A stretch of DNA of 64,000 nucleotides from Sanguinoderma infundibulare. Lineage: Eukaryota > Basidiomycota > Agaricomycetes > Polyporales > Polyporaceae. The notes beneath the pieces are model-generated. The model was not told where the DNA came from. It saw nothing but the letters and a program-made list of their open reading frames with translations, and did not search any database. The translations under genes and the position numbers were made by a program. This document shows, in pieces, positions 43,093-62,738 of this stretch. Each line of letters opens with the position of its first letter. The stretch's first letter is position 1. The stretch is from contig JAVLRN010000011.1 in the NCBI GenBank assembly GCA_032821775.1, forward strand, positions 372,001-436,000. Reading direction: 5' to 3'.

Positions 43093-43311
43093 TTGGACCG
43101 CACCTTCCAAAGCTCCAGTCCATCCGGGGCAACTGCGGTACAATGATACAGATGAGACTAGGCGTAAACCATGTTAAATCGAAAAGCCCCAATCTTGAGC
43201 GGACGTAGGCACCAAGTACGTAGGCTCGAGCGACCTCTCCCCATCCAACACTACTGCGATGCTGTGTAGTAAGTCCTATGTCTCTACCCCACATACGCAG
43301 GTGATTGACAT

Positions 43312-44172
43312 ATTGTATTTATTCCACACGGTGCTTCGGAAACTATGGGCTAGAACGTGAAGCTATGCTCGTTCGGTTCGGCGAGCCGCAAACCACATCG
43401 ACTGCCTTAAGAGGCCATAGGCTCGTCACATCGTCAGCCTCGAGATCGCCGCACATGTGAAGGGCCGGCAACCAAGAATATCTCGCCAAGAGCGACGACG
43501 TCAGCCTCGGGCCTGACGAGGGGTATAAGACCCCGTCCAGTACGCCTACCGCTCCTCACCTCACACCACCAGCAGCTCGCGTGCGCCCTCCCCTCTTGCC
43601 CGCTATGAAGCGCTACTTCTTCCATCCTACTCGTCCTCCAGACACCCTCATCTCGGGCTCAGACCGTGGCTCGTGCCTCCACGGTCTATATGCCCTCTGG
43701 TGCATCCGCCGCCGCCGTTGGCAGCACCATCACCAATGACGTCCACCTCCGCGCGTCTGCAGGGTCCTCAAGAGCGCCTGACTCGAGGTCTGGGCTGCCT
43801 CTCGAGGTGAGCTTGTGCATGTGAACAATTCCAAAGCTCTGGCTCCTGACGACGGCTGCTGCAGAAACTGCGTCATTGCCCCCAGCTTTGTCGCCCTGTG
43901 CATGTGCCTTCGGGTGCGGTCGATGGGAAACAAAGCTCCCTTTCGTGCACGCGCGCCTTCGGCTGCAGCGAGCGGGAAAGGATTGGTGGTCAATGGCGTA
44001 GTCGCCATGGGTTGTTGGTGATCGGGGCGGAACATTTCTTTTCTGTATCTCTCTGGTTTCTCGTTCCATGATCTTCCTATGTATCTCTCTCTCGTCATAA
44101 ATCATAAAACCCTTGCTGTCATCCAGTACTCGTAACATTTTCATTTGGAGGAACTACAAGGATCGGAATGAC
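43312..44172 (+). repeat. Left arm of the palindrome
   Basis: It carries a TATAAG motif near 43,525 and a downstream ATG at 43,604, so each arm could contain a small transcription unit pointing toward the spacer. The longest frame lies on the minus strand, 43,686-44,144 (MKMLRVLDDSKGFMIYDERE...), with no known relative. Confidence 0.8.
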
Positions 44173-44512: not shown

Positions 44513-45378
44513 CGGGTATCATTCCGATCCTTGTAGTTCCTCCAAATGAAAATGTTACGAGTACTGGATGACAGCAAGGGTTTTATGATTTATGACGAGA
44601 GAGAGATACATAGGAAGATCATGGAACGAGAAACCAGAGAGATACAGAAAAGAAATGTTCCGCCCCGATCACCAACAACCCATGGCGACTACGCCATTGA
44701 CCACCAATCCTTTCCCGCTCGCTGCAGCCGAAGGCGCGCGTGCACGAAAGGGAGCTTTGTTTCCCATAGACCGCACCCGAAGGCACGTGCACAGGGCGAC
44801 AAAGCTGGGGGCGACGACGCAGTTTCTGCAGCAGCCGTCGTCAGGAGCCAGAGCTTTGGAATTGTTCACATGCACAAGCTCACCTCGAGAGGCGGCCCAG
44901 ACCTCGAGTCAGGCGCTCTTGAGGACCCTGCAGACGCGCGGAGGTGGACGTCATTGGTGATGGTGCTGCCAACGGCGGCGGCGGATGCACCAGAGGGCAT
45001 ATAGACCGTGGAGGCGCGAGCCACGGTCTGAGCCCGAGATGAGGGTGTCTGGAGGACGAGTAGGATGGAAGAAGTAGCGCTTCATAGCGGGCAAGAGGGG
45101 AGGGCGCACGCGAGCTGCTGGTGGTGTGAGGTGAGGAGCGGTAGGCGTACTGGACGGGGTCTTATACCCCTCGTCAGGCCCGAGGCTGACGTCGTCGCTC
45201 TTGGCGAGATATTCTTGGTTGCCGGCCCTTCACATGTGCGGCGATCTCGAGGCTGACGATGTGACGAGCCTATGGCCTCTTAAGGCAGTCGATGTGGTTT
45301 GCGGCTCGCCGAACCAAACGAGCATAGCTTCACGTTCTAGCCCATAGTTTCCGAAGCACCGTGTGGAATCAATACAAT
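44513..45378 (-). repeat. Right arm of the palindrome
   Basis: Inverted copy of 43,312-44,172. The 152-residue frame is at 44,546-45,004 on the plus strand. The two arms are so similar that either the duplication is recent or gene conversion keeps them alike. Confidence 0.8.
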
Positions 45379-45786
45379 TTGCGCACGCCGGATGGAGACA
45401 CAGGACTTACTAAACAGCCAGCGGAGGGGCGCGAGCCTGGCATACAGCGGCTGCTGGCTTCCCAATCTCTCTCACCGCCCGCCAGGTATGCACGCCCGCG
45501 AAGTCTTGACCGCATCGAGACTCACTGACTCTCTCACCGCCAGCTTTGTATGTAGGACATTATTCAAGGACACATGATATAATAACGAAACACGACGGGC
45601 TATATCACGTCTTCAAGATCAATAAATAAGGATCGAAAGGAGGACGAAGGAGGGGAATTACTTTGAAAAAGCCAAGTGATGTGCAAAGGGAGTGGCGAGG
45701 AACGATGTGGGTCTGGGTGGGAAAGCATACGGAAGGCACAGGGATAGGCGAGAATGGGACATCCCGACGGTTGAAAGGTTGTTCAT
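45379..45786. other. Gap between palindrome and large transposon
   Basis: No gene supported; short frames only. Confidence 0.5.
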
Positions 45787-45808
45787 CAGTAATTCGCGCG
45801 AGTTCTGA
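45787..45808 (+). repeat. Left terminal inverted repeat of the transposon
   Basis: Shares AATTCG(C/T)GC(G/A)AGTTCTGA with the reverse complement of 59,412-59,433, preceded by CAG(T/A). The match is about 19 of 22 positions. Confidence 0.65.
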
Positions 45809-45880
45809 ACATCTGAATCATCTGACCGCGGCTAGGTCAGAGGTTCAGATGCCGTCAGATACGTCAGATGTTCAGACATG
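45804..45880. repeat. Left subterminal TCTGA/TCAGA repeats
   Basis: At least seven TCTGA or TCAGA pentamers in both orientations within about 80 bp. In CACTA-type elements such repeats bind an accessory element-encoded protein; that role here is inference. Confidence 0.65.
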
Positions 45881-45925
45881 ATCTATTGCTCGACTATCGT
45901 CAAAAACCGTAGTACACCTATTTAA

Positions 45926-48900
45926 TTAGCATAGCGTCTCGTGTGCATGGTAATCTGAATACCAGTTGACATAATATCTACGAAAAGCGTCCAAAGCGTC
46001 CGAATAATGGAAGTCATGCGGGAGCCGAGTAGTACCATATACACCAATGAGATGACACCCACGAACAATCGACTGTAAGGGAACAATGGAAGTAAGTCGT
46101 TCTAAGTTATCCGAGTCCGAGTCCGAGTCCGAGTCCGAGTCCGAGTGCGACCCGGGATCCTTCCATGCAGGACTGACAACATACATCCCGGTGACTCGAT
46201 CCACCTCATCCTCTTTATCAAACCATTCGACTAACGCACATCTATATTCGGTGTCATCGTGCTCGAATGAAAGAAACGCTCGAACGCGGGCTACCTCCAA
46301 TCCATCCATACCAAGAGCATCCTGATCAGTGCAAATAAATACAGTGTCATAGCGAGGGAACTCCCCCCACCATAACGGCGTCGCCCGTATCATCTCGCGC
46401 TGCATCCCGTTCGGACCGCCATGTTCGCTCGGAGCAAAAAAGGAGGCGGACGCACAGTAGTAGACAGAAACTTGAGAGCCGCCCCAAAAGTAAGGGCACT
46501 GATCGAGTGGGATGTCGTCGGCATCGTCGGCGTCGGGATACGCCTGTGCATAAAGAAAACGACGTATCATGTTGGTGAGCTGCGGCTGGTCAAGCAGCTC
46601 AGCAATTGCGTTCGCTGGTTTGGCGTATGCTAATACTTGTGTCAGTGTTCAATGTCTCGGTCGTGAACTGAACTTACAGGGAAATACAGTCACTTACCGG
46701 GGCGGTCGCTGACTGTTACACATGCATCGGCAGGCGATTCGTCACTCGCCATTGCTTCGGCAAGCTGCTGGAATCGCTCATCTTCGTTGGCTTCAGTATC
46801 TTCTGAGTCTGAGTGGGACTCATCCGACGACACGTCCGCTCTGGCCACCAAACGCGCGTGAACAAGAACATCACCGTAAAACATCCCACGACGTCCAAAC
46901 TCGGCACGAGCAGCAGCGAGCTTGTTGAGCCGGGTGACTTTGCGGATGATTTGTCCAATAGGATTCCGTCGATTCGACTCGCGCCATGGCTGTTTGACGG
47001 CGGATATGTGCTTCGACTCGGTGATGGATGAGCAGAGTCCATTCGGCGACCCGAAGAGTTGAATGTTATGGACCATGTGGCCAAGCGAGTGCTGTCGAGG
47101 AAGCGCAAACCCATCCGGTCGAATACCAGCTTCGATGAAGATGGAGCGAAGATCGTGAAAACACTCAAGGAGTGCTGCCATGGCCTTGAGACATGGTGTG
47201 TCATGGGAGGGACGTCGCGCGAGATAGCAGAAGTCTAGGAAAGCGGCAATGCATTCCACCATCTTGTCCGGAACATGGCCAGCGATGGCTGGCAGAAAAA
47301 CCTAGGATATTATGAGTACAGATCCACGCGACCTGCAGAGCATCGCCATACCTTCATCAGGGCCTTTGAGTCGTCACCCGTCCACTGTTTGAAGTTACAC
47401 CCTTGTGGAAATCGGCGTAGCCCGGGAAAACATGAAACCGCCGAGATTCTGCAAAACTGTCAGTATTGTGTGGAACCTCAGAGATCACATCCTCAGCAAC
47501 CAGTTCACGAAGTCTGGTTACCCACTCGGGCTCATGCTGAACACTTGTGGTCTGTGCTTTGTCAACAAAGGCGAGGATTTTCGCAACCACACCTACACGA
47601 GGTTTGGTTGTGAGATCCTGGCCCAGCCAGGCAGCTACGCCTTCCATGTGTGCCAGAAATATCCAGGAGGGAGCGGATTGACTGCCGGTGCGGTATTTAG
47701 GGGAAGGTTGGTCGAGAGGCGGCACATCTCAAATTGGATCTGTAAGGCACAGTTCGACCGCCTCCACCGGTTGTCCGCCTGGCTCTTCCTCTAGCGGGCG
47801 TGGCGGCGCCGACGCTGGAGATCCAGCACGTGCGCCCCACTGTCCATTACAGCCCGACGGGGCACATACTCACCGTCACACCCAAGGACTTTGGCGTGAA
47901 GCGTCATCCCGCGCCCCTCTTTGCGAACGTGCTGCCTCAGATTGCCACGTCTGCTGTGGTGTCGCCGAAGACTGCTAATGCTGCTGCAGCCGAGAGGGCG
48001 GTTAAATTCGGCTCTGCTCTTTCCATGCGAATGGGGCCGTCCCCGCTGGAGACGCCTCGCACAGTGAGCGTAACGCGCACGCCGGAGGGTTCGGTGAGCA
48101 GCCGTTTCTATGAGTATTTAGTATTTGGTGCGCTGCAGCTGATATCATCATGTTGTGCTGTAAGATCAAGCTCAAGATCGCGCCCAAGACTACCCCGCCG
48201 GCACCAATAGCAACACCAACGGTAAGTACCCACTCGTTAGTCTCTCCGCCTGCAAATGCCAATGGACATGACGTCTCGAGCAGGACAGGTTACAGTTAGC
48301 AAGCGCGCTGACAGAGCACGTCCCTCCGATGCAGTCATTGAGCACGCCCCACAAGTCTAAGAAATGCAAATGCGCGGCGCGGACGTGCGAGTCGCCCGGA
48401 TGCGGGAACCCGATCCTGCGACAGTTCAAGGGCATGCGGTGCGTCAAATGCGGGTTTGTGCAGTGGCGGACGATGTTCCGCGAGCGGTTTGAAGGCATCC
48501 GTGCGGAGCTGGTGACGGCGGTGAAGAAGGAGTCGGAGGTCGAGGAGGAGGGACTTAGTGTCAAGGAGGAGAAGGGTGCTGCGCCACAGACAGCTCAGGA
48601 TGGAACTCTGTCTGCGGAGCATATGGAGGTCGACGAGCCCCAAGCTGCTGCTGCTCTTCCGAGTCTGGTGTGGGAGTCATCGGCGGCGAGTGCAGGAGTG
48701 AACAATTCCGCTGCTTCAAGTGGCGGGGACGTCTCTATGGCTGACGCGTGTTCTCCGATTGGAGTCGATACGCCTGCCATCAAGTCCGTCAAACTCGCGG
48801 TCTCTGCTCCTCGAGATACGAGTGCTGCAGACGGCGTCGAATGCGCTCCCAGCTCGTCCCACATGCAGAGTTTGCCATCATTCAAGATCGCCGGCGTCAC

Positions 48901-51900
48901 AGGGCCCCAGTCTGCGAAGCTTGGACAAGATGAACGGGATGCGGACACGCTCTTAGAGCTAATGGCTGCAGTGCCGAGGAGTAATGGGTAGACGGTGCGC
49001 TAGCATACAATCTGTGGCACTAGCCACTACACAACAGGTTCCTGGGCCATGGCACAAATGATTGAACATGAGGCCTGAATTCTACCGAAGCCCACAAACC
49101 CGGGTCTGGTCCCTATGCCCGCTACCACGGCGCATCATCGACGCTTGCAAATGCAAAAGAAGGAGCAACTCGATGACGATGCGCAGCGGTCGAGGACTAG
49201 TGCGATGCGATGAATGTATTCTTCCCGAACAAGGCATGCGGTCCTGATCAGATACAGAGAAGCAACTCATAGCATTAGAGCAACGACCTGCAAATGTGAT
49301 GTGCCACCAGAATATGACGTGAGGAGACAAGTAGCATCGTGCAGGCCATCAGCGACAGTTTTCATGACCTGTGGATTGGATCGGCTGCCTCTGTGCAGTG
49401 TGCCCAATACAATGTCCGAAACACAAGTTGATGTGAAGACGGAGATGAAGCTCACCGGCGATCAATGTCATCGAGGATCCGGTCAGCCTCGCGCTCACTT
49501 GGGGCCATTGCCTTGATATATTCGATAACCCACTCGACGAGGTGGTCCTTGAATGTTCCTTTGATAACTTGATGCAGTAGGTCGGACGTCAGGAGCTCGT
49601 GGATATCGGCGTGGGGAAAATAGTCTGTAAATGGCTGTGGGATACATTAGAGTCTGTACAAAGTGTTGTGCAACATACGAGAGAAGGGAAACTACTTGCC
49701 GTAACATCAGGGTTTATGCTGAACGCGTCCCAAAGCTCATCATCACTGTAACCAGGGTGGCCTCCCTCACGATCCTCGCGCGCACGAGAATCACCGACAG
49801 AAAAGTCATCCTTGGGCACCGAATAACACCTGGGCACACATCAGCGAGTGAACATTTCCTTCTGAGCCACACCATTCCCCCATCTCAAAGGTTCACCTCC
49901 ATGGACAGCCAAAGCCAAACTCAACCCCTCACCTATGACCCCCAAACCGACATCGTGACCCAGATCCATGTGTTTGGATATCTCGATGTACACGCGAATG
50001 CGGGTAGGCTGTGGAGAGACCGATCGTGCGTGCTAGTAGTGCTTGCGCACGCCATGGGGTGCCGCTGGGACCTGAGTGCATACTCATCACTAGGATCGGG
50101 TTTAATGCTCGTTGGTGGGGAAGGACGTGCGAATGCGACGTGCGTATCGATATGATACAGCTCCAGGGCAGGTAAAGTTATGCATCACAGGCAGCGCTGT
50201 GGCGCATGACGGATGCAGACAGGTGAATGGGGATCGTGTGCTGTATGGCAGAGAATCGTCCTGACTCAGATGTATTAAGGGAGGCGAAGCCGAATCACAG
50301 ACTGACTTCGAGCGTCCAGTCATGCAGCGAGACAGACTAGCGGACAGCACGCTCGTGAGCTCCGAGATGCTGTACGAGGCATACAGCACACTGGGACATG
50401 AGCGACAACCGGACTCCGGCAGCGGGACATCTGCGGACGTAGGCGGCGGTGGCCGTCAATGCGGGAGTGCACCACAACGCACGTTTGCACGTGGACACCA
50501 TCAGCTTGACCATGACCGGCGCGGCAGCAGACCGTGGTGCCCTCCCTCCGGCCCTGGATCTCGCTCACGAACCTCCGCACGATGCACCTCAACTCTCTCG
50601 TCCTGCACTCGCCCATCCGCACCCTCTCGCAGACATTCAATGCCTGGCGCACGCTCGTCGCCCTCCAAGACACACCCGACCATCCGGTCGATCGCCTCGA
50701 CGAAGGATTGCATGTCCCCGCAGCGACTGTTCAGAATCGCGCAACTACGCGGTGTCACCCCCCTCTGTGGTACGATGAACGAACAGCATATGGACGAGGC
50801 TCTGGCGTCTGAGAAGCTGGACCTGGACGACATTCAGGCATCCATGAACGATGTCCTCAAGATCATCCAAGGCTAGCTTCCCCCTCTATGTCGCCTTCAG
50901 CATCAGATGTACAAGCAGGATGTGCAGAGTATGCGCGGCAATGTAAAGTATGAATTTGGTCCACGCTTGATCAGGACGTGGCCTGCCACGTCCCGTGCAT
51001 GCCGCGAGGGTTTGAGATTTGAAAGGAATTTTATATTGAACAGGAAACGCAACCACTCACTTAGGACACCAGCCCTGGACGACACCTGATAGGTACACTT
51101 GCTCCGGATAGTCAGCAATAAAGGGGCCCAGTTCGAAGATTGCACGCCGGAAGTGGCTGTCTGGACAGCGCATAATATGAGGAGTGTTCATGCCGGGTCG
51201 GAGAGGGGCGAGGATATGAGCGAGGGACTGGTGGTAGAGTCGCTTCTTGAAAACGCGGAACTCGTCGTCATTGCCCCACTCGTGTGCAGCTAAAGGTCCA
51301 TATATTAGCACGAAATATACAACTAAAGCGAGGTTGGTAGAATGCACTTACAGGATGGAATTGGGAGGAAGGCAAGTGGTACAACGCTGTCGCGATGAGA
51401 CCGTCGCATGTCGTTGTGAATGTTCCCGAGCGACATGTATACAGGATGGAACTCTTGATGACCGGTGGCGACGGAAACTGTCGTTTTATCCGCACCGAGC
51501 ACAATGGGTACGAGCATCGCACCACCAGAATCGATTGTCGGATCAGCCGCAATGGTGTTCTACAAGCAGGGTCAGTCACATAAAACAGCATCCTCTGCGC
51601 ACGAATTCGCCAATCCCTGCAGACGAGGGAGCAACTACGAGGGCATCCAAGACTGCGGAAAGGCTTTGGAGGGAGGTGACATTGATAAACGTACCGCCTT
51701 TTTGTATGCCCACAGCCCCGACATAAGATCTGACACTCGACGGCAGTTGGGACCGGTAGACTCCACGTAGGGTGCGTAATCGAAGTGGCCATTGAACTCG
51801 GGGGACGACGCGAGGTTTTCGGCAACACGGAGAGCATTACGGCAGTGCAAAAAGTAGATCTCGGTCTTCCACGAAGGGGAAGTGGGGTTAACGGGGCCAT

Positions 51901-52398
51901 CGTATCGGAAGGTGTATGTTGTCCAGGATGCTTCGCCATACTCGAGGGAGTCGATTGCTTCGAGGATGTCCTTGTAGTTCTTATAGAAGGGGCGGTAGTC
52001 GGGCATATTGTCGATGACCCACTTGGCAGCGAGCACACGGAGGATGTGGTCGACCTTCCCCTTCGACATGCGAGCCTCCTCGAAGACAGACTCGGCAAAC
52101 TCGAAGGTGGGGCGATCGGGAAAAGGGGTCCAATCCATATCATCGGGTCGGGGGATAGGAGGCGTGTTCGGCGCAAGGAAATTTCCCTGCGCATCGCACG
52201 GCCGACCTTAAAACCATAGTAAGACAAAAATGTATGAGCAAAAAACAATGAAGTGTACAAACCGACAAGAATAGGATGCCGCTGATACGTTGAGCGTGGT
52301 GGAGGCGGTTTGGGCCGGGAATGGACATTGTGGCGATGTTCTTTATAATGACGTCGGTTGGAGTACGATAACTTGCAGGGCTTGCAATGGCGGGCCAT
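45926..52398 (-). CDS. Plavaka-type transposase, apparently intact
   Basis: Start ATG at 52,398 gives a C2H2 finger (CKPCKLSYSNRRHYKEH). Splicing at short introns yields CDAQGNFLAPNTPPIPRPDD, WAYKKA-NTIAADPTIDSGG, VPIVLGADKTTVSVATGH, MSLGNIHNDMRRSHRD and HEWGNDDEFRVFKKRLYHQS. IADYPEQVYLSGVVQGWCP follows. Joining 51,061 to 49,829 restores GWCPKCYSVPKDD. The protein continues PFTDYFPHADIHELLTSDLL and DRILDDIDR. Joining 49,456 to 47,448 restores DDIDRRISAVSCFPGLRRFP, then CNFKQWTGDDSKALMK-VF, FGSPNGLCSSITESKHISAV and the C-terminal SDALDAFRRYYVNWY. These blocks are hallmarks of the Plavaka transposases abundant in Agaricomycetes. A (CCGAGT)6 tract at 46,111-46,146 encodes a Ser-Asp run. Introns 47449-49455 (2007 bp) and 49830-51060 (1231 bp) are about 20-40 times longer than normal and carry foreign sequence. 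Confidence 0.85.
46111..46146. repeat. Hexanucleotide microsatellite inside the transposase
   Basis: Six units of CCGAGT on the plus strand encode alternating Ser and Asp on the minus strand (SDSDSDSDSDSD), which expands a surface-type acidic loop without breaking the frame. Confidence 0.85.
47480..47725 (-). other. Unidentified coding-like frame inside a transposase intron
   Basis: Lies in intron 47449-49455. It reads HMEGVAAWLGQDLTTKPRV, ILAFVDKAQTTSVQHEPEW and RLRELVAEDVISEVPHNTDS, which looks protein-like. It is not part of the transposase, whose exon begins at 47,448 in a different frame. It may be another captured fragment. Confidence 0.4.
47810..48991 (+). pseudogene. Zinc-ribbon gene lacking its start, nested in a transposase intron
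   Basis: Plus-strand coding sequence opposite to the host transposase. It opens without an ATG (AAPTLEIQHVRPTVHYSPTG) just inside the inserted segment, so the 5' end seems lost. Two of its own introns remain: 48104-48138 (35 bp) and 48222-48281 (60 bp). Removing them gives SSPDIIMLCCKIKLKIAPKT, ATPTDRLQLASALTEHVPP and then a Cys-rich zinc-ribbon-like segment CKCAARTCESPGCGNPILRQ followed by MRCVKCGFVQW. The C-terminal half is acidic and Ser/Ala-rich with the stop at 48,989-48,991. Retained introns mean the piece was moved as genomic DNA, not as cDNA. The protein family is unknown to me. It could still be expressed from an alternative start, for example Met at 48,027. Confidence 0.6.
50322..50876 (+). 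pseudogene. Unidentified gene fragment in a transposase intron, perhaps F-box/LRR-like
   Basis: Lies in intron 49830-51060, antisense to the transposase. One frame ends in a plausible C-terminus (MNEQHMDEALASEKLDLDD, then MNDVLKIIQG and a stop). Another frame reads LRPWISLTNLRTMHLNSLVL, which resembles the leucine-rich part of basidiomycete F-box proteins. The two are in different frames, so the fragment is probably shifted or spliced. Identity is uncertain. Confidence 0.35.
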
Positions 52399-52601
52399 GA
52401 TAGAGGATGTATGAGAGCAAGGGTGCGTCGGCGATGGGGTGAAGCGGTAGAGGTTCTGCTGGGAGGGATCGGACGCCTGCTGGGTCGTCAGGCTGTGAGG
52501 AATGGTTGCGGGGAGCAGCCCAAATCGTACAAGTCTGCAAGGGGCCGGCGTCAAATTTCGTCGCCATTCCTCTTTCTCCCCACTCACCCGCTGCTCAGCT
52601 A
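52399..52601. promoter_or_regulatory. Shared promoter region of the two transposon genes
   Basis: The transposase ATG (52,398, minus) and the DUF6532 ATG (52,602, plus) are separated by about 200 bp, so both promoters must lie here or overlap their 5' ends. I see no clear TATA box on either strand. Confidence 0.5.
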
Positions 52602-55600
52602 ATGTCCGGTAAACGTCGCAGAGGAGGCGGTCGAGGATGCGGTCAAGGCCGTGGTGGAAAGGCCAAGAACTCGGACAGACCGCTGTCGCCTCCCTTAGAC
52701 GACGCTGCCCCGCCCAATGCCGCCGAGGCCACTCCCGGGCCCAAGCGTCGTCGGACGGCAGACTCCAATACTCCCACAAACCAGTCAACCGCTATCCAGC
52801 CATCTAATGACCCAGAACCGGACCCGGACACATCTGTGCCTGGCATCGAAGCAGTAAGTCATTTTAACCACTCTCGACATTGTTGTGCTCACCCTTACGT
52901 TAGGCCGATACGCCTGGTCCCACGGCGGACAGCCGCTATACGCTCCGCAAACCTGGACGCCACCCGGCCAAGGACGCTGGCCTCGTCCCGAAACCCATGT
53001 CTGAAATTATGGCTGAAGCTGCTGCCAAGCGAGCAGCTGAGAAGAGCATACAGGATGCCAAAGCCACTGAACAGGCTGTGAAAGCTGCAGAGCGCGCCGC
53101 CGATCGTGACAAATTTGCGATAATGTTAGAAGAGAGAGCTCGGTCCCAGGCTGAGGATGCCTTGTACTTCGGTACGTACTTAATAACCTCTAGATAGACG
53201 TCAGATGCTGCTTGCCATCGACGCAACACTTGACCCTCTCTCCATCCTCGTCCGTGTACACTGCCAGGCGGCACGTAATCGTTGCGCCATATGGTGTCTT
53301 GATTCCATTTGTGACCGAGGCACGAGACCTCCCGTGCGGTACACGCAGGAGGTCTCGAGCCTCCGCGCTGCCACCTTCAACGGGTCCGAGTCCCGGTTCT
53401 CCCTATCCTCCGGTGCCGCCTGCGCTCGCGTGCGCTTCTTCCATGCGACTGTCGGCGGTTCGGCATATAGGTCTTTGAACTCGAGCGTCGCGAGCGGTTG
53501 GCACGGCTCTCATCCAGTGCTGTGACTGCTCTGCGGGCAGTGGAGGGCTTGACGGGGCTTGACGACTTGTCGCGCATCAACCCCGCTCTGGAGTGCCAGT
53601 CGGACAGACCCCCGTCGGAGAAGTGCGGCATTGGCAGCGGCGAACGGTGGTGCGCGCTGCAGTGCTTGTGAGGGGTGCGGAGTGCATGCGTTAGGCTCCC
53701 AGACGACGACGAGGCTTCCTCCGATAGTTGGTCGAAACCCGCCTTCTGGACGGAAGCCAGGAGGATTGGTGCGATGGAGTTCTCGGTCGTCGAATGGCTC
53801 GAGTGTGACGTCGACGTCAGCCTGTGAGCTAGAGCCTGCCGCAGGCAGGTCCTTCTCTCCCAAGACGTCAGGAGCGAGATGAGGCGGGCGCATGTTCTCC
53901 TTGTCCTTGTTCACGTCGTAATCCTCTGTCGGAACGTTCTCCTTGTCTTCGTCCTCCAAATCACCGGCGTCATCGAGGTGCAATAGTTCAGAGCGCGCGG
54001 GATCGACATCGAGGTAGAGATCGTCGATGTTGTGTTCGCAGTTTCGCATCCGGCCAGACCATCTCTGAAGGAGATGAGACGGGTGTGGCACACGATAGTA
54101 GGGAGATACGAACCTCGGTAGGGCGCTGGGCATACTGGACTGGCAGTATTTCAAGCAGAAGGGCCTCTACGTGTTCAACGCGTTCATCGCCCTCGTCGAA
54201 AACGGCTTCACGGCGACGGATGTCGGCATCCCCTGCTACATTGTGCGCTCGAAGGCGGACGTGCACATCCGGAACGTCATGATTAAGCGGGGATATGACA
54301 GCGACGAGAAGGAGGAGGATGCGCCGAAGCCAGGCGTGGCTCGAGAGGGAGGCGAGGGAGCACTTCATCACCGCGACGAGGCAGAACATGCGGGACAACC
54401 TGTGTGGCAGAGTTGCCGGACCAGCGGGTGTATATTGTCTGGAACTCCACGATGCTGAGCATCGTCAGGCAGTCGGTATTTCACATTTTTGTGGATGAGC
54501 CCTGGACAGGTTGAGGCATCAGTGAGCATATATATCCTCGGAGACTGCTGTCACGTACCATGCAACTGCTTGGTCGTATAGGAGCGCGCGATGGGGGATG
54601 AGAGGCACGGACCCGATTCAAACTTGCTGGGGTCCTGGTTCTATTCCTCCTCGAGCTCATCAAGGTCTTCTTCATAGTCGCTGATCCTAATGTCCGATGA
54701 AACTTGTAGGCGAGGTTACTGATTCCGCCTTGATTTCTCAGATACGTCCATTACAGAGGATAACCCGACCGAGAACCAGATTGAAGACTATGAAACAGCA
54801 CTAGAGGCCCAGCCAGATATCCAGGTATGACTTTACAGAATGAATCGTAGCGTCGAGGTCGAACTAACGTTCAGTGGAAGTCGTCTACAAGTGAGAGGCA
54901 GACAAGTGCTCATCAACGTTCGACACCGGCCCGAACCGAAGAGGCACTGCCCTCTCCGAACGTTTCTCGCACGCCATCCGCGGTTTGCATTCATCTTTCA
55001 TTCTTATCCTTACGACACTGTCGACTAACTATCAATACGCCAGGCATCCAAGACGTCGAACGTGCAGAGCAACAAGCGCAAGCCTGAGGACACCGAGCCC
55101 AATGGTCAGAGTAGGTCCAAGGTATGTGTGGCGATTACTGTACATGCGCAATATGGCCGTGAATATGCTTAATACATTCGCAGAGGCCTACGGCTTCGGA
55201 CCGGCGTTCTCAACGTCAGGCCAACGTTCACGAAGATCTTTCTCAGCGCTGTCAGGCTGTCGTCGAGTCGACCATTTCGGCCTCTGTTAGCGGCGGAGCT
55301 GGTGCCGCTATTCAAATGCCGAGGTATGTCCCTAAACAACTGATTGCTTCAGTAAATATCAACTTATCTTCTTCACTACAGAATTCCCACTGTTACTCGT
55401 CCAGCAAACCCACAAGACACCCCAACAAGTGCCTTCCGCCCGAACTGGCGGCACACGCTCATTTCTCATTCACGTTCTCAAACTGACACCCCCGCTGCTC
55501 TTACCAAGGCACCCGATACGCCGACGCCCATCAAACGTAACACCAAGGACACGCCGCGCGCTAGTACGTTCAATATCCACTACATCCCCACCAGTTGCTA

Positions 55601-58600
55601 GCCTCCTCTCTTCCGATCGCCCGCACCCATAAGCCCGACCTTTAATCGACGGGCTGCGATGACGAGCTCGCCCCAGCCTCTACCGTCTCTTCCGCCGTCC
55701 CCGACCTCAAATACTAACATTGCGCACGTCTCCTTTGTCTCAGGGCCTGCGCACACCACGAACGCCCACGCCACACATTCCGTCGAGGACAATGAGTTGG
55801 ATTTCGAGGAAATCCAAGGACTCAACGATGCGGATGTGACTGCTGACCGCGACAAGACCCTGGCGAATGTGGGGCCGCGCAAGCTCGCTGGGAAAGGGAA
55901 AGAGAATGTGAGTGCCGTCATTAGAATTTAGCCTTCTCCACCTCCGCCTTCTTCGCCGCGCTCTCTATCACCACCCGCGTCTCCATCGCAGCCTCCGCGA
56001 GGTAGTTCTTGAGATCAGCAGTATCCTGCCTCAAGCTCGTGATCGTCCAACGGACGTAGTGGTCCCCGATCGAGTACGAGAGCCCGTACCCGTCGGGCAC
56101 GATTTCGCCGTAGCTTCGCCCTTCCTTGAAGGGCGAAGAGAGCTGCGAGGTCGAGAGCTCCCAGTGGTTGGTCTTGCTCAACGCCCCGTTGGTGTAAATC
56201 GCTGGCACGGGCTCGCCCTCCTTGAGCAGCTTCTTGAGGCTGAAGAGGTGGTGGTCGACGCCCTGACCGTCGGCGGCCCATGCTGCGTACTGCAGGTGAC
56301 GCGAGATCGCCTTGCGGAAGAGCGCGGCACGATGCTCGTCCTGGATCACAGCACGTCAGCTTTCCGCACAGTCCGAATGTAAAGTAGGGGGATGAGTGGG
56401 TCGACGGAGAGCTCGAGGAGGTTAGAGAATGTCGTGAAGAATGACGAGAGCATGATGCGGTTTGCCGCGTGATACTGGTCGTCCCCATAGCACTCGAGCC
56501 ATTCTGCAACCGATGGTCCTGCGATGTTGTCGTCTGGATCGTGGCTGCTCTCGCCTTCTCGGGACAACTGATGAGCACCAGCAGCTCCTTGTAGATCATA
56601 CGACTCGCGCATCTTTATGATCCCGCCTCCGCCAAGCTTATTGAGGTGCTGAGTCCGTAGAGCGCGGCCCCACGCACCTTGGGCGAGTTGTCAGAGAGCA
56701 GCGCGATGAGCTTGTCCTGCACGCCGTAGTCGACCCCCCACTCCTTCGTCTCGTTGTTCGTCTCATGGATCTGCGCGATAAACAGCGCAGACCACTGGCG
56801 CAGAAGGAAGTCGCCATTGTCGAGGTGCTCGAGGCACACATCGAAGACGTGTTCGCGAATGCACACGTCCTTGCCATGCGCAGCGGGAACCGATGCTGGG
56901 GGAGGGGGTTGGTGAGGATTGTGGTGCGCAGGCGGCGCAGGCGGAGGCGCATAATGATGGTGTTGATGCTGCCGTTGCACGTATGGATCGTACGCCGGTG
57001 ATGCTGCCGTTGCACGTATGGATCATACGCTGGTGTCGGTGTGTATGGTGTTGATGCTGCCGTTGCACGTATGGATCGTACGCCGGTGTCGTTGGCGGGG
57101 GCCAAGTATGCGATGTGGTAGGCGCTGGAGCGGGAGCGGGAGCCCGGGCCGGAGCAGTAGGTGGACTGTACTGGTATGGAGGGTGGAGGCGGCGGCGGCG
57201 GCGGCGGATGGTGAGTACGCTGCTGGTGTTGATGAGGCAGAGGGGGAGGAACAGAACAACTGTGCGTTGGAGGCGCATAACGATGAGATGATGGTGGAGG
57301 AGCGCCGTGCGCGTGAGGATCATACCGGTATGCGGGCGCAGGACTCGGAGCCGGCGCAGACGGTGCGGAATAACGATGGTCGCACGGGGCCGGTGCAGGG
57401 GCAGGGAGCGCAGACGTATAGTGCGGGTGTTCGACAGGTGCAGGTGCATGAGAAAGGGCGGGGGGCGCACTTTGAGCGGGGGTAGAAGGATGTTGTGGTG
57501 CAAGTGTAGGATCGATCGCACTCTAAGCGGTGTTCGTGCCCGACGGACCTATCTTATCAACGCCAGCATCATCTGGCCTTGACCGTTTCACTCCACGTCC
57601 TTTCTGACTCTCTCGTCTGCTGAGGTTCCCACCAGCGCTCGGACCGGCTACACTCCCGACAGATTCTCTCCTCTCCAGCTCGCGTTCGCGGTCACGATCT
57701 CGGTCCCTTTCACGGCCCATTTCGCGTTGCTCACGCTCGCGCTGCTCCTTCGAGCGGTCATCCTCTGCGTAATCACGCGCGATCGTCGAGAGGATGAAGG
57801 CGCACACCACCTGGTGCTCGGAACTGTTCGGAAACATCCCCCGGCGAGGGTAATACTGTCTCACGCGCGCGGACACGCAATACTTGTAGCCTTGGTTGTT
57901 GTGCAGGTCTACTTGGCAGCCCTGTCCGATGTCCGCTCCTCAGCCTCTGTCCTCGCATGGTCGCTGAATTGTCCTGACGTTAATTATACACAGGGGTTCG
58001 TCATTCGCCAGGTCTCGGAGAAGGCGGAAAAGAAGAAGAGCAAGAAAGAGCGCAAGCCCCAGAAGAAGAAGAGCAAGAAGCGTTCTTCCCGAGAGTCCGA
58101 GAGCGATCAGGACTCGACCGACAACGAACACAGCGGCGACGACGGCAAATCCCTCAAGTACGAGACGTTACCCGATTGGACGAAGCCCACGATCAAGACC
58201 GCCATCGTTCCATCCATCATCGAGTACCTTGGAGCTCAAGACAATCCATGGGAGCTCAACACGAAGGAATACACGTTTCTTGAATTAGTGCAAAGCTATC
58301 TCGACGACCTCTTCCCCCGCCGTCCAAGCTACACCCTTGCAAAGAAAGACCGCATATATAGATGGGTATGAATCTGATATTCCTCTCGAGTCGCATTGCA
58401 CTGATTCCTGTCCCGCGTCAGTGTCAACAACAGGTGTACGAGTGGCATCGGGGTTTCCAGAGGACGGCCCAGGTCGTCATCGCGAATGCAATCGAGGCCC
58501 GCCGCGTGAACACCAAGCTCCGCGCTGAACAGCGTACAGATCGAGCTCTCTACCAGTGGGTTTGCAATGCGATCAAACCGGGGGGCGAAGCCACGTTCGG

Positions 58601-59170
58601 AAAGCCGAACATTGCAGAGGTACGTCACAACTAGGCTCTACGAGCCATACAAATTTACGCTTACTCGATTGCCCTCATGCAGCCTGACGACGCACGCGAG
58701 CAACTTCAATCGCCGTATGTCCTGCAGACGGTCTCATTCCACCTCAAGTCAATAATCGGGACCACCAACGACGACGATTCCCTCACTCCGGTTGGGGCTA
58801 TTTCTCTTGCCGCTGCAGCTGTAAGTTTCGTGTCACAAACACCGCGCATCTGCTAACCGAAAGATAGGTTGAGCAGGCTTTTAAGTGGCACGTTGAGGGC
58901 CAACCCAAGGGCCTTGCACGTCCGCCGTTCTCGAAGCGTCGTGCAGGCCCTCTTACTGGCGAATGGCGAGAGACGGGTGTCCAGGATCTAGTCGACCGTC
59001 CGAAACGTATGCAATCGTTGCTCGACCGCGCATCGGCGCTGTTAGATCTCAAGGACGGAGCTGACAGTGGGATGGTGGCGGCGAGTACTGCAGGTCCACG
59101 CCGCTCGCTCTACCGGCGCGAGCGTAGCAGTTCCCCGCCTGCCCCAGTTGATGATACCCATATGATATAA
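52602..59170 (+). CDS. DUF6532 domain protein encoded by the transposon
   Basis: Start MSGKRRRGGGRGCGQGRGGK, a basic N-terminus followed by low-complexity sequence. Splicing gives GIEA-ADTPGPTADSRYTLRK and an Ala/Lys-rich coiled coil (MSEIMAEAAAKRAAEKSI). Joining 53,171 to 54,742 restores YFDTSITEDNPTENQIEDYE. The chain continues SERQTSAHQRSTPART, ASKTSNVQSNKRKPEDTEPN and TRPANPQDTPTSAFRPNW. Joining 55,907 to 57,994 restores GKEN-GFVIRQVSEKAEKKK, a Lys-rich nuclear-type stretch. The DUF6532 domain follows: LPDWTKPTIKTAIVPSIIEY, YTLAKKDRIYRW, YQWVCNAIKPGGEATFGKP, SPYVLQTVSFHLKSIIGT and VEQAFKWHVEGQPKG; stop 59,168-59,170. One junction near 55,560-55,630 is unresolved and may hold a frameshift. 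The domain is common in Agaricomycetes with unknown role; placement beside the transposase suggests an accessory DNA-binding protein, which is inference. Confidence 0.75.
53400..54060 (-). pseudogene. Unidentified host-like fragment in a DUF6532 intron
   Basis: Inside intron 53172-54741, antisense to the DUF6532 gene. One frame reads MRNCEHNIDDLYLDVDPARS, LEDEDKENVPTEDYDVNKD and ENMRPPHLAPDVLGE. A further piece near 53,600-53,400 reads KSSSPVKPSTARRAVTALDE and SSKTYMPNRRQ. This looks like the disordered N-terminal part of a nuclear protein. I cannot name it. Confidence 0.4.
54121..54500 (+). pseudogene. Fragment of an IRG-like dynamin-related GTPase
   Basis: In intron 53172-54741, same strand as the DUF6532 gene. 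It reads ILDWQYFKQKGLYVFNAFIA, GIPCYIVRSKADVHIRNVM (RSKAD corresponds to the guanine-specificity motif), then in a second frame LEREAREHFITATRQNM and in a third ELPDQRVYIVWNSTMLSIVR. This order matches the middle and C-terminal part of fungal IRG-like GTPases. Two frame changes show it is decayed. The N-terminal P-loop part is absent. Confidence 0.6.
55921..56349 (-). pseudogene. C-terminal fragment of carnitine O-acyltransferase
   Basis: In intron 55908-57993, antisense to the DUF6532 gene. Uninterrupted reading: FRKAISRHLQYAAWAADGQG, VDHHLFSLKKLLKEGEPVP, TNHWELSTSQLSSPFKEGRS, YGEIVPDGYGLSYSIGDHY and VRWTITSLRQDT, with a stop at 55,921-55,923. The WELSTSQ, PDGYG and YSI blocks are diagnostic of the carnitine acetyltransferase C-terminus, including residues that bind carnitine and CoA. 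The catalytic His domain and everything before it are missing, so it cannot be an enzyme. Confidence 0.75.
56350..57876 (-). pseudogene. Fragment of Raptor/KOG1 (TORC1 subunit)
   Basis: In intron 55908-57993, same orientation as the acyltransferase fragment and directly upstream of it. Readings include FPNSSEHQVVCAFILSTIAR, a low-complexity Arg/Glu and Pro/His/Gln-rich insertion, REHVFDVCLEHLDNGDFLLR, QWSALFIAQI, GVQDKLIALLSDNSPKVRG and TTFSNLLELSVDPLIP. These are consecutive pieces of the Raptor HEAT-repeat region. The caspase-like N-terminus and WD40 C-terminus are absent and the frame changes between pieces. Confidence 0.65.
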
Positions 59171-59255
59171 CCTAAGTCGCCGCCGTATATACCAGGCTTC
59201 CATCAGCGAGTTACACATGCGCATATGGCAGCCCGCGCCTCCCGTCCATACGTCT

Positions 59256-59418
59256 GAAATGTCTGACAGTCTGAAAGGTCTGGCAGTCCCCTGGCGAAAA
59301 CCTCTGAACAGCAAAAAAAAAGCTCTGACTTCTGAGCTCTGTCGTGTCTGAAATGCATCTGAAAATGTCTGAAAATGTCTGAAAACGTCTGAAATGTCTG
59401 TCACAGACGTCTCAGAAC
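59256..59418. repeat. Right subterminal TCTGA repeats
   Basis: A dense cluster of TCTGA, mostly as TCTGAAAATG or TCTGAAATG variants, with a few CTGACAG and TCAGA units. It mirrors the cluster at 45,804-45,880 just inside the opposite end. Confidence 0.7.
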
Positions 59419-59433
59419 TTGCACGAATTTCTG
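59412..59433 (-). repeat. Right terminal inverted repeat of the transposon
   Basis: The reverse complement begins CAGAAATTCGTGCAAGTTCT, matching the left end at 45,787 at about 19 of 22 positions. Confidence 0.65.
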
Positions 59434-60496
59434 AAGTTGATGCGGGATCCGAGTCCTAGGGCGCGCCTTTTGGCGCGAGCCAAGGACTGCCGGGCGTCGG
59501 CGGTGGTGCCTGCAGTTCCAAGATGTGCGACGAACATACTACATTGGCATGGCTGTCAGAGCACCATGGAAAGATCAGAGTCAACTTGGGGTGCTCACAA
59601 CCAGTGTTTGCCCACGCTCGGACAGCCGACCGCTTTCGTACCAACCGATGGTCACGTCTACGATAGAAATGAGCCACCATGGACATGTACCGGTCGGCGG
59701 GTTACATACCTCACTCGCACTCTCCTCCGCTGGAAGCACGCCAGCGGTGGTTCCGAATGCGCGCGCCACGGTTTCTATCGAATCTGGGGGATGTTCTACT
59801 CTGTCGGACGGATCAGACAGGGGAGAGTTCACTCTCGTGGCGGCAGTCGACGTTGCCGCGGGGGCGGACTATAGAAATCCTGCGTGAGCAAAAGGCGAGG
59901 GGTATCGGGAAATGACCCCGAGTCCGTACCGACGCCGTGCTGATGCTGGGTTCTACGAACAAACAACCAGCCAGGCGACAACCGCGCTCGACGAGCACCT
60001 AGAACGACGTGCGTCAGCCAAGGAGACCTGTGAAATTGCTTACACACTTACGAGAGAGTCAAGGGGTTTGACAGGAAGAGGGGTGGCGTATACCATCGAG
60101 TAGACTAGGGATCAGAACATCAGCAACTCGGAGGTCGTAAACGAAGCACCAATGAATACAGAAGAATATGTCTGTCAAACGTCAAGGACTTGGAACCTTC
60201 GAAAAGCAATAGTGCGGCAGACGTCCGTTTCACGAAAGACCCCACTTAATGGGCACACAGTTCCGCGGATGCGAACGCTTAGACATAAAAGTGCTCACCT
60301 CCGACGAGAACCGCCGAGATCGCGAAAGTAGGTGTGAGAATAAAAGCAACCATGTCGTCCAGCAACTGGGGAGACAGGGGAAAGAACGAATTCGAAGATT
60401 TGAAGACGTGCACGAAGACGAGACTGTCTGGGCGAGGGACCTGGCATTCCCCCATGCACGATGTCTGCACTTATACTCGTCCCTCATGGGGCCTAC
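59434..60496. other. Gap between the transposon and the second inverted-repeat element
   Basis: Overlapping frames on both strands (59,419-60,103 and 60,230-60,580) have no recognisable domain. A short GC-rich hairpin (GCGCGCC-TTTT-GGCGCG) lies near 59,461. No gene supported. Confidence 0.4.
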
Positions 60497-61140: not shown

Positions 61141-61317
61141 GGGGCGGCATGCCGCGTCTATCCGCATCACAGTCGCGTCGCAGTGCACCACTGAGCGTCA
61201 GGTGTGCGCTTCTAGAACCAACACCAAACTTGAGGTACGCACCACTTGACGGATCCGAGTTTGACAATGACGTGCGCCTGGGCACACAGAAAGACGATCA
61301 CAATGTACTCCACCATG

Positions 61318-61772: not shown

Positions 61773-62738
61773 CATTGTTCTGCTTCGTGTCGCATCACAG
61801 CCGCGTCGTGTGGCGTCGTGTGGCGTCACAGAGCCGCGTCCTTTCGCGCCGTGGCGCGTCATGGTGCGCCACAGCGCGTCGTGTCGTATCACGACTCTGC
61901 ATTTTCGTTATGCCCGTCAAACTCGGATCCGTCAAGTGGTGCGTACCTCAAGTTTGGTGTTGGTTCTAGAAGCGCACACCTGACGCTCAGTGGTGCACTG
62001 TGACGCGACTGTGATGTGGACGGACGCGGCATGCCGCCCCCCGACGCGACACTGACGCGGAGCGACGCGGCTTGCTGCACCCGAGACGCGACCCTGACGC
62101 GGCAGGCTGCACTAGACGCAACAGAGAGGTGAGGGCGGATGCGTATTGTGGAGGCCATGAAACAGAGTAGACGTTGAACTTCTTGCTACTTAGGCTAAAG
62201 CCGGCGATAACGCCCTGCTCTCACTCAGGCTGTCGGGTAATAGCTGGCAGTGCACAGCGGGCGTAAAGCCGCACTTTACATCTGGCAGTCTTGAAGAGGT
62301 TTTGGGGAGACGTTGCGAAGCGAGGAAGATGAGGGTCTGGGTTGTATCAGCATGCTAGATGGTCAACATTGAATATGCGGGCAACAGCTTACCAAATGTT
62401 CAATGGCAACATTGGCTAGATTATCGTCTATGCTGTGCCAGGTCCAACTTGATGAACAGAATGGTGGTCTATCAGTCGAAACAACGTGTCATAACCCACA
62501 GATGTTCATGACAACCGAGACTAAGTCGAATAGGGCTATATCAATGGTGTTCACAGTAGGACGGCGGCCGGTAGGTGAAAGAGAGCAAAGCCGACAATCA
62601 TGGAACAGACGCGTGCACGCGACAGTAGCGGCACTGTGGCGCGGCCCGGCCCCGCGCGTCACGACTCTGCATATTCTCAGCTGTAGGCCCTCTCTGAAGC
62701 CAGCGCGATCGACTATCCGCTCATTATATACAACATAC

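Follow-up and report, generated by a model that had tools for sequence, protein, structure and literature searches.

Captured host gene fragments in the introns of a Plavaka-like transposon of Sanguinoderma infundibulare

A Plavaka element with two divergent genes

The analyzed window, a 64,000-nucleotide stretch of the polypore Sanguinoderma infundibulare (assembly GCA_032821775.1; C11:372001-436000, contig JAVLRN010000011.1), contains a Plavaka-like transposon with two genes, the introns of which carry fragments of unrelated host genes. Donor loci and sister copies were searched for in this same genome (48.9 Mb in 87 contigs, C1–C13 denoting contigs thereof), yielding two sisters, located on C4 and C3, which share 99.7% identity over 9,948 bp. 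The element is delimited as follows:

45782..45783, left target-site duplication TT, read from the sequence (TG/TG in the sisters)
45784..59436, whole Plavaka element, 13,653 bp, starting CATCAG and ending CTGAAG (CTGATG in the sisters), read from its termini
45926..52398, minus strand, gene 1, transposase of 932 aa (splice model and PF18759), nine exons: 52398-52263, 52206-51695, 51559-51352, 51289-51061, 49829-49700, 49634-49456, 47448-47352, 47301-46698, 46629-45926
52602..59170, plus strand, gene 2, 761 aa (splice model), twelve exons: 52602-52853, 52904-53171, 54742-54824, 54875-54982, 55044-55121, 55184-55323, 55382-55563, 55744-55907, 57994-58365, 58422-58619, 58683-58820, 58868-59170
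59437..59438, right target-site duplication TT, read from the sequence

Termini and target duplication give the limits 45784–59436, replacing the 45787–59433 of an earlier note on this DNA, whose assignment of the element to Plavaka holds on the basis of the PF18759 transposase, the inverted ends and the 2-bp target duplication. The spliced gene 1 protein matched PF18759 over positions 1–325 of 325 (E-value 9.3e-111; 370.6 bits against a cut-off of 26.3), with the match spanning the 1231-bp intron; this intron also splits the codon preceding the last cysteine of a CPKC motif present in the protein. For the gene 2 protein no Pfam match was obtained. Helitrons lack terminal inverted repeats and encode a Rep/helicase protein, and this class is ruled out by the inverted ends with target duplication together with the Plavaka transposase.

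Within Agaricomycotina, the PlavakaB lineage is described as having CATCA..TGATG ends, target duplications of 2 or 3 bp, and C(2)C and H(3-4)H motifs between the second D and the last E (Kojima 2025, PMC12730594). These termini are matched at both ends of each sister and at the left end of the window copy, the right end of which reads TGAAG, differing by one base from TGATG; the duplications are TT in the window and TG at each sister. In its ends, its 2-bp duplication and its PF18759-type transposase, the element agrees with PlavakaB. In contrast, intronic captured host fragments are not mentioned in the portion of that description available to us, and the passenger gene reported there, a TET/JBP dioxygenase, has no counterpart among Pfam matches of gene 2 (PMC12730594).

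The two genes are divergent and their joined frames are open. The gene 1 introns measure 56, 135, 62, 1231, 65, 2007, 50 and 68 bp, and those of gene 2 50, 1570, 50, 61, 62, 58, 180, 2086, 56, 63 and 47 bp, with GT..AG ends in 18 of the 19 and GC..AG in one. The four large introns proposed in the earlier note (1231, 2007, 1570 and 2086 bp) were reproduced exactly, each with GT..AG ends, and with these removed the genes could be read as open frames of 932 and 761 aa, as claimed. Judged by sequence the large introns appear real, and their splicing is predicted from it. The statement that the remaining introns are short held for 13 of the 19 (47–68 bp), but not for the introns of 135 bp (51560-51694) and 180 bp (55564-55743), which hold host-derived pieces as well.

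Host-derived cargo and its donor loci

Donor-assigned sequence amounts to 6,524 of 13,653 bp (48%), derived from 13 sources at 80–97% identity, in agreement with the earlier estimate that half of the element is cargo. None of it lies in exons (0 of 5,085 bp). The cargo is distributed over 6 of the 19 introns, where gene 1 intron 6 as well as gene 2 introns 2 and 8 were struck repeatedly, and including three sources found in the sisters only, all 16 of 16 sources in the two lineages are intronic. Pieces of unrelated genes were found in all four large introns, as had been proposed, with the leading donor match per large intron showing E-values of 0 to 9e-169. A search of the same genome for donor genes, suggested in the earlier note, located loci still in place elsewhere for the 13 window and the three sister-only sources, seven of the former having one donor locus each. 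Chance similarity is rejected, a single 4-kb host control region returning besides itself only 10 matches, all of 72–79% identity. The cargo is arranged as listed below, the names of captured pieces deriving from Pfam runs on the donors:

51560..51694, minus strand, gene 1 intron 2, 135 bp; two multigene-family pieces in changed order (51579-51643, 51646-51682), the family being presumably F-box-like, judged by its donor frame; sister intron 273 bp, same family
49830..51060, minus strand, gene 1 intron 4, 1231 bp; sister intron 49 bp
49858..51045, plus strand, aldo/keto reductase gene fragment from C9:1869278-1870161, 83-89%; pieces 49858-49968, 50561-50694, 50673-51045
49970..50539, fragment of C7:2872996-2873617 (C7_2873), 80%, nested within the aldo/keto reductase fragment
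47449..49455, minus strand, gene 1 intron 6, 2007 bp; sister intron 753 bp, other cargo
47475..47731, plus strand, FAD_binding_2 gene fragment from the C7:3028823-3029530 region, two pieces, 86-89%; 18-nt stub in the sister
47758..48889, plus strand, gene fragment of C8:698263-699399, 88%, antisense to gene 1, two apparent donor introns kept
48964..49332, piece of a C2 family with four C2 matches (C2fam_955), 87-89%
53172..54741, plus strand, gene 2 intron 2, 1570 bp; sister intron 1270 bp, cargo partly different
53182..54699, base fragment from C9:95559-96023 (C9_95), 84-86%; pieces 53182-53298, 54041-54125, 54488-54699
53345..54038, minus strand, C2 multigene-family piece, 82% to C2:798 kb, between C9 pieces, partly common to the sister
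54131..54475, plus strand, IIGP-like GTPase family piece (C8), 82%, between C9 pieces, partly inverted in the sister
55564..55743, plus strand, gene 2 intron 7, 180 bp; sister intron 62 bp
55576..55703, plus strand, fragment of C13:86301-86428, 128 bp, 93%, in gene 2 intron 7
55908..57993, plus strand, gene 2 intron 8, 2086 bp; sister intron 1155 bp
55922..56399, minus strand, carnitine acyltransferase fragment from C7:1582784-1583261, 92%, antisense to gene 2
56398..57920, minus strand, HEAT-repeat gene fragment from C1:4167516-4168326, 83-90%; pieces 56398-56554, 56554-56608, 56646-56881, 57767-57920; outer breakpoints the same in the sister (within 1 bp)
56879..57774, minus strand, fragment of C4:3580747-3581541 (C4_3581), 91-92%, nested in the HEAT-gene fragment; sisters uninterrupted there

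The C1 donor is presumably raptor-like, with Pfam showing HEAT repeats only. Several related IIGP-like GTPase matches are clustered at C8:402-422 kb (Pfam run on one of them), and this family is a source in both lineages.

On sequence comparison, some captures are nested within earlier ones. The C4 fragment splits the HEAT-gene fragment at a single donor point, with C1 resuming after a 2-bp overlap in donor coordinates, and the C7 fragment likewise interrupts the aldo/keto reductase fragment. Assigned pieces meet at 23 joins, 17 of them in the window copy and 6 in the sister; among these, 7 overlap (five by 1–3 bp, one by 8 and one by 22), one is flush, 6 have gaps of 1–5 bp and 9 have gaps of 9–74 bp. 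Certain joins represent deletions inside a single donor, and some of the gaps probably reflect diverged ends; the overlaps are compatible with short-homology repair, though no proof of it. The C8:698 fragment contains two stretches beginning GTG or GTA and ending AG that resemble donor introns, fitting DNA copied into a break.

Within the element's introns, the cargo occupies a defined position. All 6 window cargo introns keep their native 5′ splice site, along with a 3′ portion that includes a CTRAY motif. Cargo starts 10–15 nt past the 5′ splice site, or 123 nt past it in gene 1 intron 6, where this stretch is mostly unassigned, and ends 19–73 nt short of the 3′ splice site, with the CTRAY motif located 15–30 nt from the intron end. 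In the sister gene 1 intron 6, cargo directly follows GTGAG. Such placement is as would be expected if only captures sparing the splice signals survive.

Sister copies and mobility of the family

To follow the capture history we compared the window copy with its sisters, whose longer common blocks are 84–93% identical to it. All 21 exons recur in the sisters, where the joined frames, 2,793 and 2,289 nt long, are open and free of internal stops. Proper ends were found for 8 of 8 sister gene 1 introns, while in the gene 2 projection one end of introns 1, 3 and 4 (3 of 11) was off, as the alignment fell short of the exon edges. Between the lineages, the ratio of nonsynonymous to synonymous substitution rates (dN/dS, Nei–Gojobori) was 0.09 for the transposase at a dS of 0.32, consistent with constraint, and 0.45 for gene 2 at a dS of 0.21, where dN is somewhat inflated because the alignment missed these exon edges. 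By these ratios (0.45 vs 0.09), gene 2 evolves faster than the transposase gene. About 60 bp between the divergent genes (52423-52482) are missing from both sisters.

Intron lengths differ markedly between sister and window copy, with 49 vs 1231 bp for gene 1 intron 4, 753 vs 2007 bp for gene 1 intron 6, and 1270, 62 and 1155 vs 1570, 180 and 2086 bp for gene 2 introns 2, 7 and 8. The sister cargo, mapped on the C3 copy, has six sources in common with the window: the gene 1 intron 2 family, the C9 95-kb locus, the C2 family of gene 2 intron 2, the IIGP-like family, C1 and FAD. The FAD fragment is represented in the sister by an 18-nt stub identical to the donor, and by this comparison the sister has lost the fragment and kept the stub. 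Three sources are private to the sister (C3:671488-672204, 90%; C3:1235333-1235844, 96%; C8:1560912-1561394, 89%) and seven were found in the window copy alone. Among the latter, four pieces (C9_1869, C13, C7_1583 and C4_3581) occupy positions at which the sister is either short or uninterrupted, a fifth (C7_2873) lies within C9_1869, and the C8:698 and C2:955 pieces sit in an intron overwritten in the sister, so that the comparison does not fix their age. Sister copies with empty short introns, anticipated in the earlier note, were thus obtained for two window cargo sites, whereas the cargo introns otherwise carry cargo in the sisters too, in part different.

We also assessed the mobility of the family. 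Miniature inverted-repeat transposable elements (MITEs) of ~489 bp with ends matching those of the element (e.g. C4:1171650) gave 41 matches, 29 of them near-full-length, at identities of 78–100%, including one listed at 100% against the query copy; this genome query with one MITE copy returned the MITE family only and no captured genes. One MITE copy lies ~3 kb from the C4 sister. The transposase 5′ exons were found at no fewer than three loci at 89–90% identity or more, all with cargo introns, and the gene 2 3′ part yielded at least three full copies and at least 33 shorter terminal pieces, both counts being lower bounds. The near-identical sisters at separate sites and the MITEs hint indirectly at autonomy with the element's own enzyme. 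If no other copy or family served, the enzyme mobilizing sisters and MITEs would have come from a gene with cargo introns, and those introns must then be spliced.

Two inverted repeats flank the element: an 863-nt repeat ~400 bp to its left (43309-44171 and 44519-45381; arms 99% matching, 347-nt spacer) and an 85-nt, 100% complementary repeat to its right (61181-61265 and 61916-62000).

Origin and confinement of the cargo

The most convincing explanation, and in our judgement a probable one, is that breaks in the element were patched with copied host loci and that confinement to introns arose through survival. A Plavaka element with both genes intact would suffer DNA breaks, some of which would be patched by a copy of an unrelated host locus, made by template switching or by end joining with copied filler, while the donor stays in place. 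Patches landing in exons or harming splice signals would ruin the copy, whereas those in an intron, past its 5′ splice site and ahead of its branch point, would be removed from the RNA and survive. An enlarged intron would then offer a bigger neutral target, later patches would land inside earlier ones, and copies laden with cargo would still move. We infer splicing, repair of breaks by copying, survival as the cause of the confinement and self-driven movement from the compared copies; patching by copying is likely because the donors remain and apparent donor introns are kept. Precedents are the template-switching model for animal Pack-TIRs (PMC8277862) and the filler DNA at excision breaks in rice (PMC4423477). 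The earlier wording that the element stores fragments, placed where splicing can hide them, is borne out as to the confinement of cargo to introns, but the confinement is better read as survival of captures that splicing can remove.

Several observations weigh against this explanation. Native non-exonic DNA is itself largely intronic (~1,090 of ~1,700 bp, by intron-length arithmetic), and the probability that six first captures would all be intronic is near 0.07, which is not significant. Joining of the exons across the cargo introns is predicted from sequence alone. The transcribed strand of the cargo shows no shortage of splice-like motifs relative to the other strand (GTRNGT 17 vs 8, GTRAGY 6 vs 6, branch..YAG 8 vs 11), and purging of such motifs, once tested, was unsupported. 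The joins are untidy, with overlaps that lack a computed chance expectation, and no donor was found in the genome search for the stretch 49333-49450 of gene 1 intron 6. For five comparable shared fragments, the sister is nearer to the donor in three and the window copy in two, an unexplained pattern that may reflect faster change in the window lineage or subsequent correction by the donor. Finally, the genome contains 40 Plavaka transposase matches, this family included, and the others, which are diverged, could have moved sisters or MITEs.

Alternatively, capture could be steered to introns, for example through breaks at RNA–DNA hybrids in transcribed introns or at sites laid bare by splicing. 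The intronic location of every donor source across two lineages and the repeated hits in three of the six struck introns would agree with steering, but selection predicts an identical pattern, enlarged introns are larger targets, and inspection of the fragment edges, with no formal motif search made, showed no common motif. We therefore regard steering as unlikely.

A further possibility is that the cargo is useful, with antisense fragments giving rise to host-like RNA by which the element is protected from silencing or host genes are dampened, a camouflage idea published for CACTA elements (PMC8978399, in the part available). Ten of the 13 strand-assigned sources are antisense to the transposon gene (one-sided 0.046), or 10 of 11 with two short sources set aside post hoc; the count leaves out C2fam_955, C7_2873 and C9_95, whose strand is unassignable. 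Codon scoring of the captured sequence was ambiguous for C4_3581, the intron 2 family and C13, and reading frames were used to assign their strand. Three sources run sense: the C13 piece, the gene 1 intron 2 family and the IIGP-like piece, the last of which has this orientation in the window copy and is inverted over part of its length in the sister. The orientation bias is suggestive only: the effect is weak, nested pieces do not count as independent, and the length split was chosen after the data had been seen. Antisense survivors would also be expected if sense pieces bring in splice sites, as in soybean Tgm-Express1 (PMC1947982, available part), and content differs between the lineages. 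Usefulness appears distinctly unlikely to us, and so does the wider view that an active element would use its introns as a running cargo hold, continually gaining mostly antisense host-gene cargo that is favored through an effect of the host-like intron RNA on silencing of the element or expression of the donors.

An RNA route, in which reverse-transcribed host messages were inserted into introns, has been proposed for the histone H3 sequence in a fungal hAT of Pseudocercospora fijiensis (PMC6710886, available part). Some fragments here do lack internal donor stretches, such as the 451 bp between the FAD pieces, but the FAD donor frame continues through this gap, pointing to a deletion rather than a removed intron, and the two apparent donor introns kept in the C8:698 fragment disfavor RNA-mediated capture, making it very unlikely. 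Ordinary nested transposons or an assembly chimera are hardly credible: although multicopy families on C2 and C8 are among the donors, seven window sources have single donor loci and neither inverted repeats nor target duplications are evident at the inspected edges, with no inverted repeat of ≥20 nt listed at fragment ends, so that nested insertion is rejected, while three separate copies on megabase contigs (2.6 to 4.3 Mb) fit one history, each with a target duplication and with donors at separate places, which renders misassembly, named in the earlier note as a refuting condition, unlikely.

Related systems are here compared through the accessible portions of the cited papers. Gene capture by DNA transposons is already known from plant relatives, CACTA elements and fungal hATs. 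Pack-TYPE elements (Pack-MULE, Pack-CACTA and others) likewise carry host fragments between terminal repeats and move them along, as for the 13 sources here, but are described as non-autonomous (PMC8903248); here both genes are intact, fragments lie in introns, and the transposase frame is open and under constraint, with activity predicted from sequence. Chenopodium CACTA elements, of a related superfamily, combine gene fragments with retained transposase sequence, yet carry these fragments ahead of their first reading frame, and neither a nested series nor a sister-copy history is described (PMC8978399). Soybean Tgm-Express1, a CACTA element with five host gene fragments and spliced RNA, sits in a host-gene intron and has its fragments spliced in as exons (PMC1947982), whereas the present element has its cargo inside introns of its own genes. 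Fungal hATs with histone H3-like sequence in Pyrenophora tritici-repentis (PMC3538342) and Pseudocercospora fijiensis (PMC6710886) similarly hold host gene sequence in a cut-and-paste transposon, and the long Pyrenophora form, with a full-length transposase, is termed likely autonomous (PMC3538342). They differ in carrying one gene, as its own reading frame or as exon copies beside the transposase (PMC3538342, PMC6710886), neither nested nor in introns of the element, with a transcript as the presumed source in P. fijiensis (PMC6710886). Animal Pack-TIRs are alike in the proposed mechanism, gap filling and template switching with short junction homology (median 2 bp where present there), but do not show confinement to introns of an intact element (PMC8277862). 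In the open-access literature searched, with most subscription papers outside it, we found no description of host fragments located in the introns of an intact transposon's own genes, nor of gene capture by Plavaka, in line with the novelty claimed in the earlier note for intron-confined capture by a Plavaka element.

With donors, before-and-after sisters and a nested order in one genome, the element constitutes a natural record of repeated capture by a single transposon and may serve as a model for the growth of transposon introns. It also marks introns as a place to find captures overlooked by scans beside or instead of the transposase, and suggests a testable rule, namely that introns would allow a transposon to gain foreign DNA repeatedly while its own genes stay intact.

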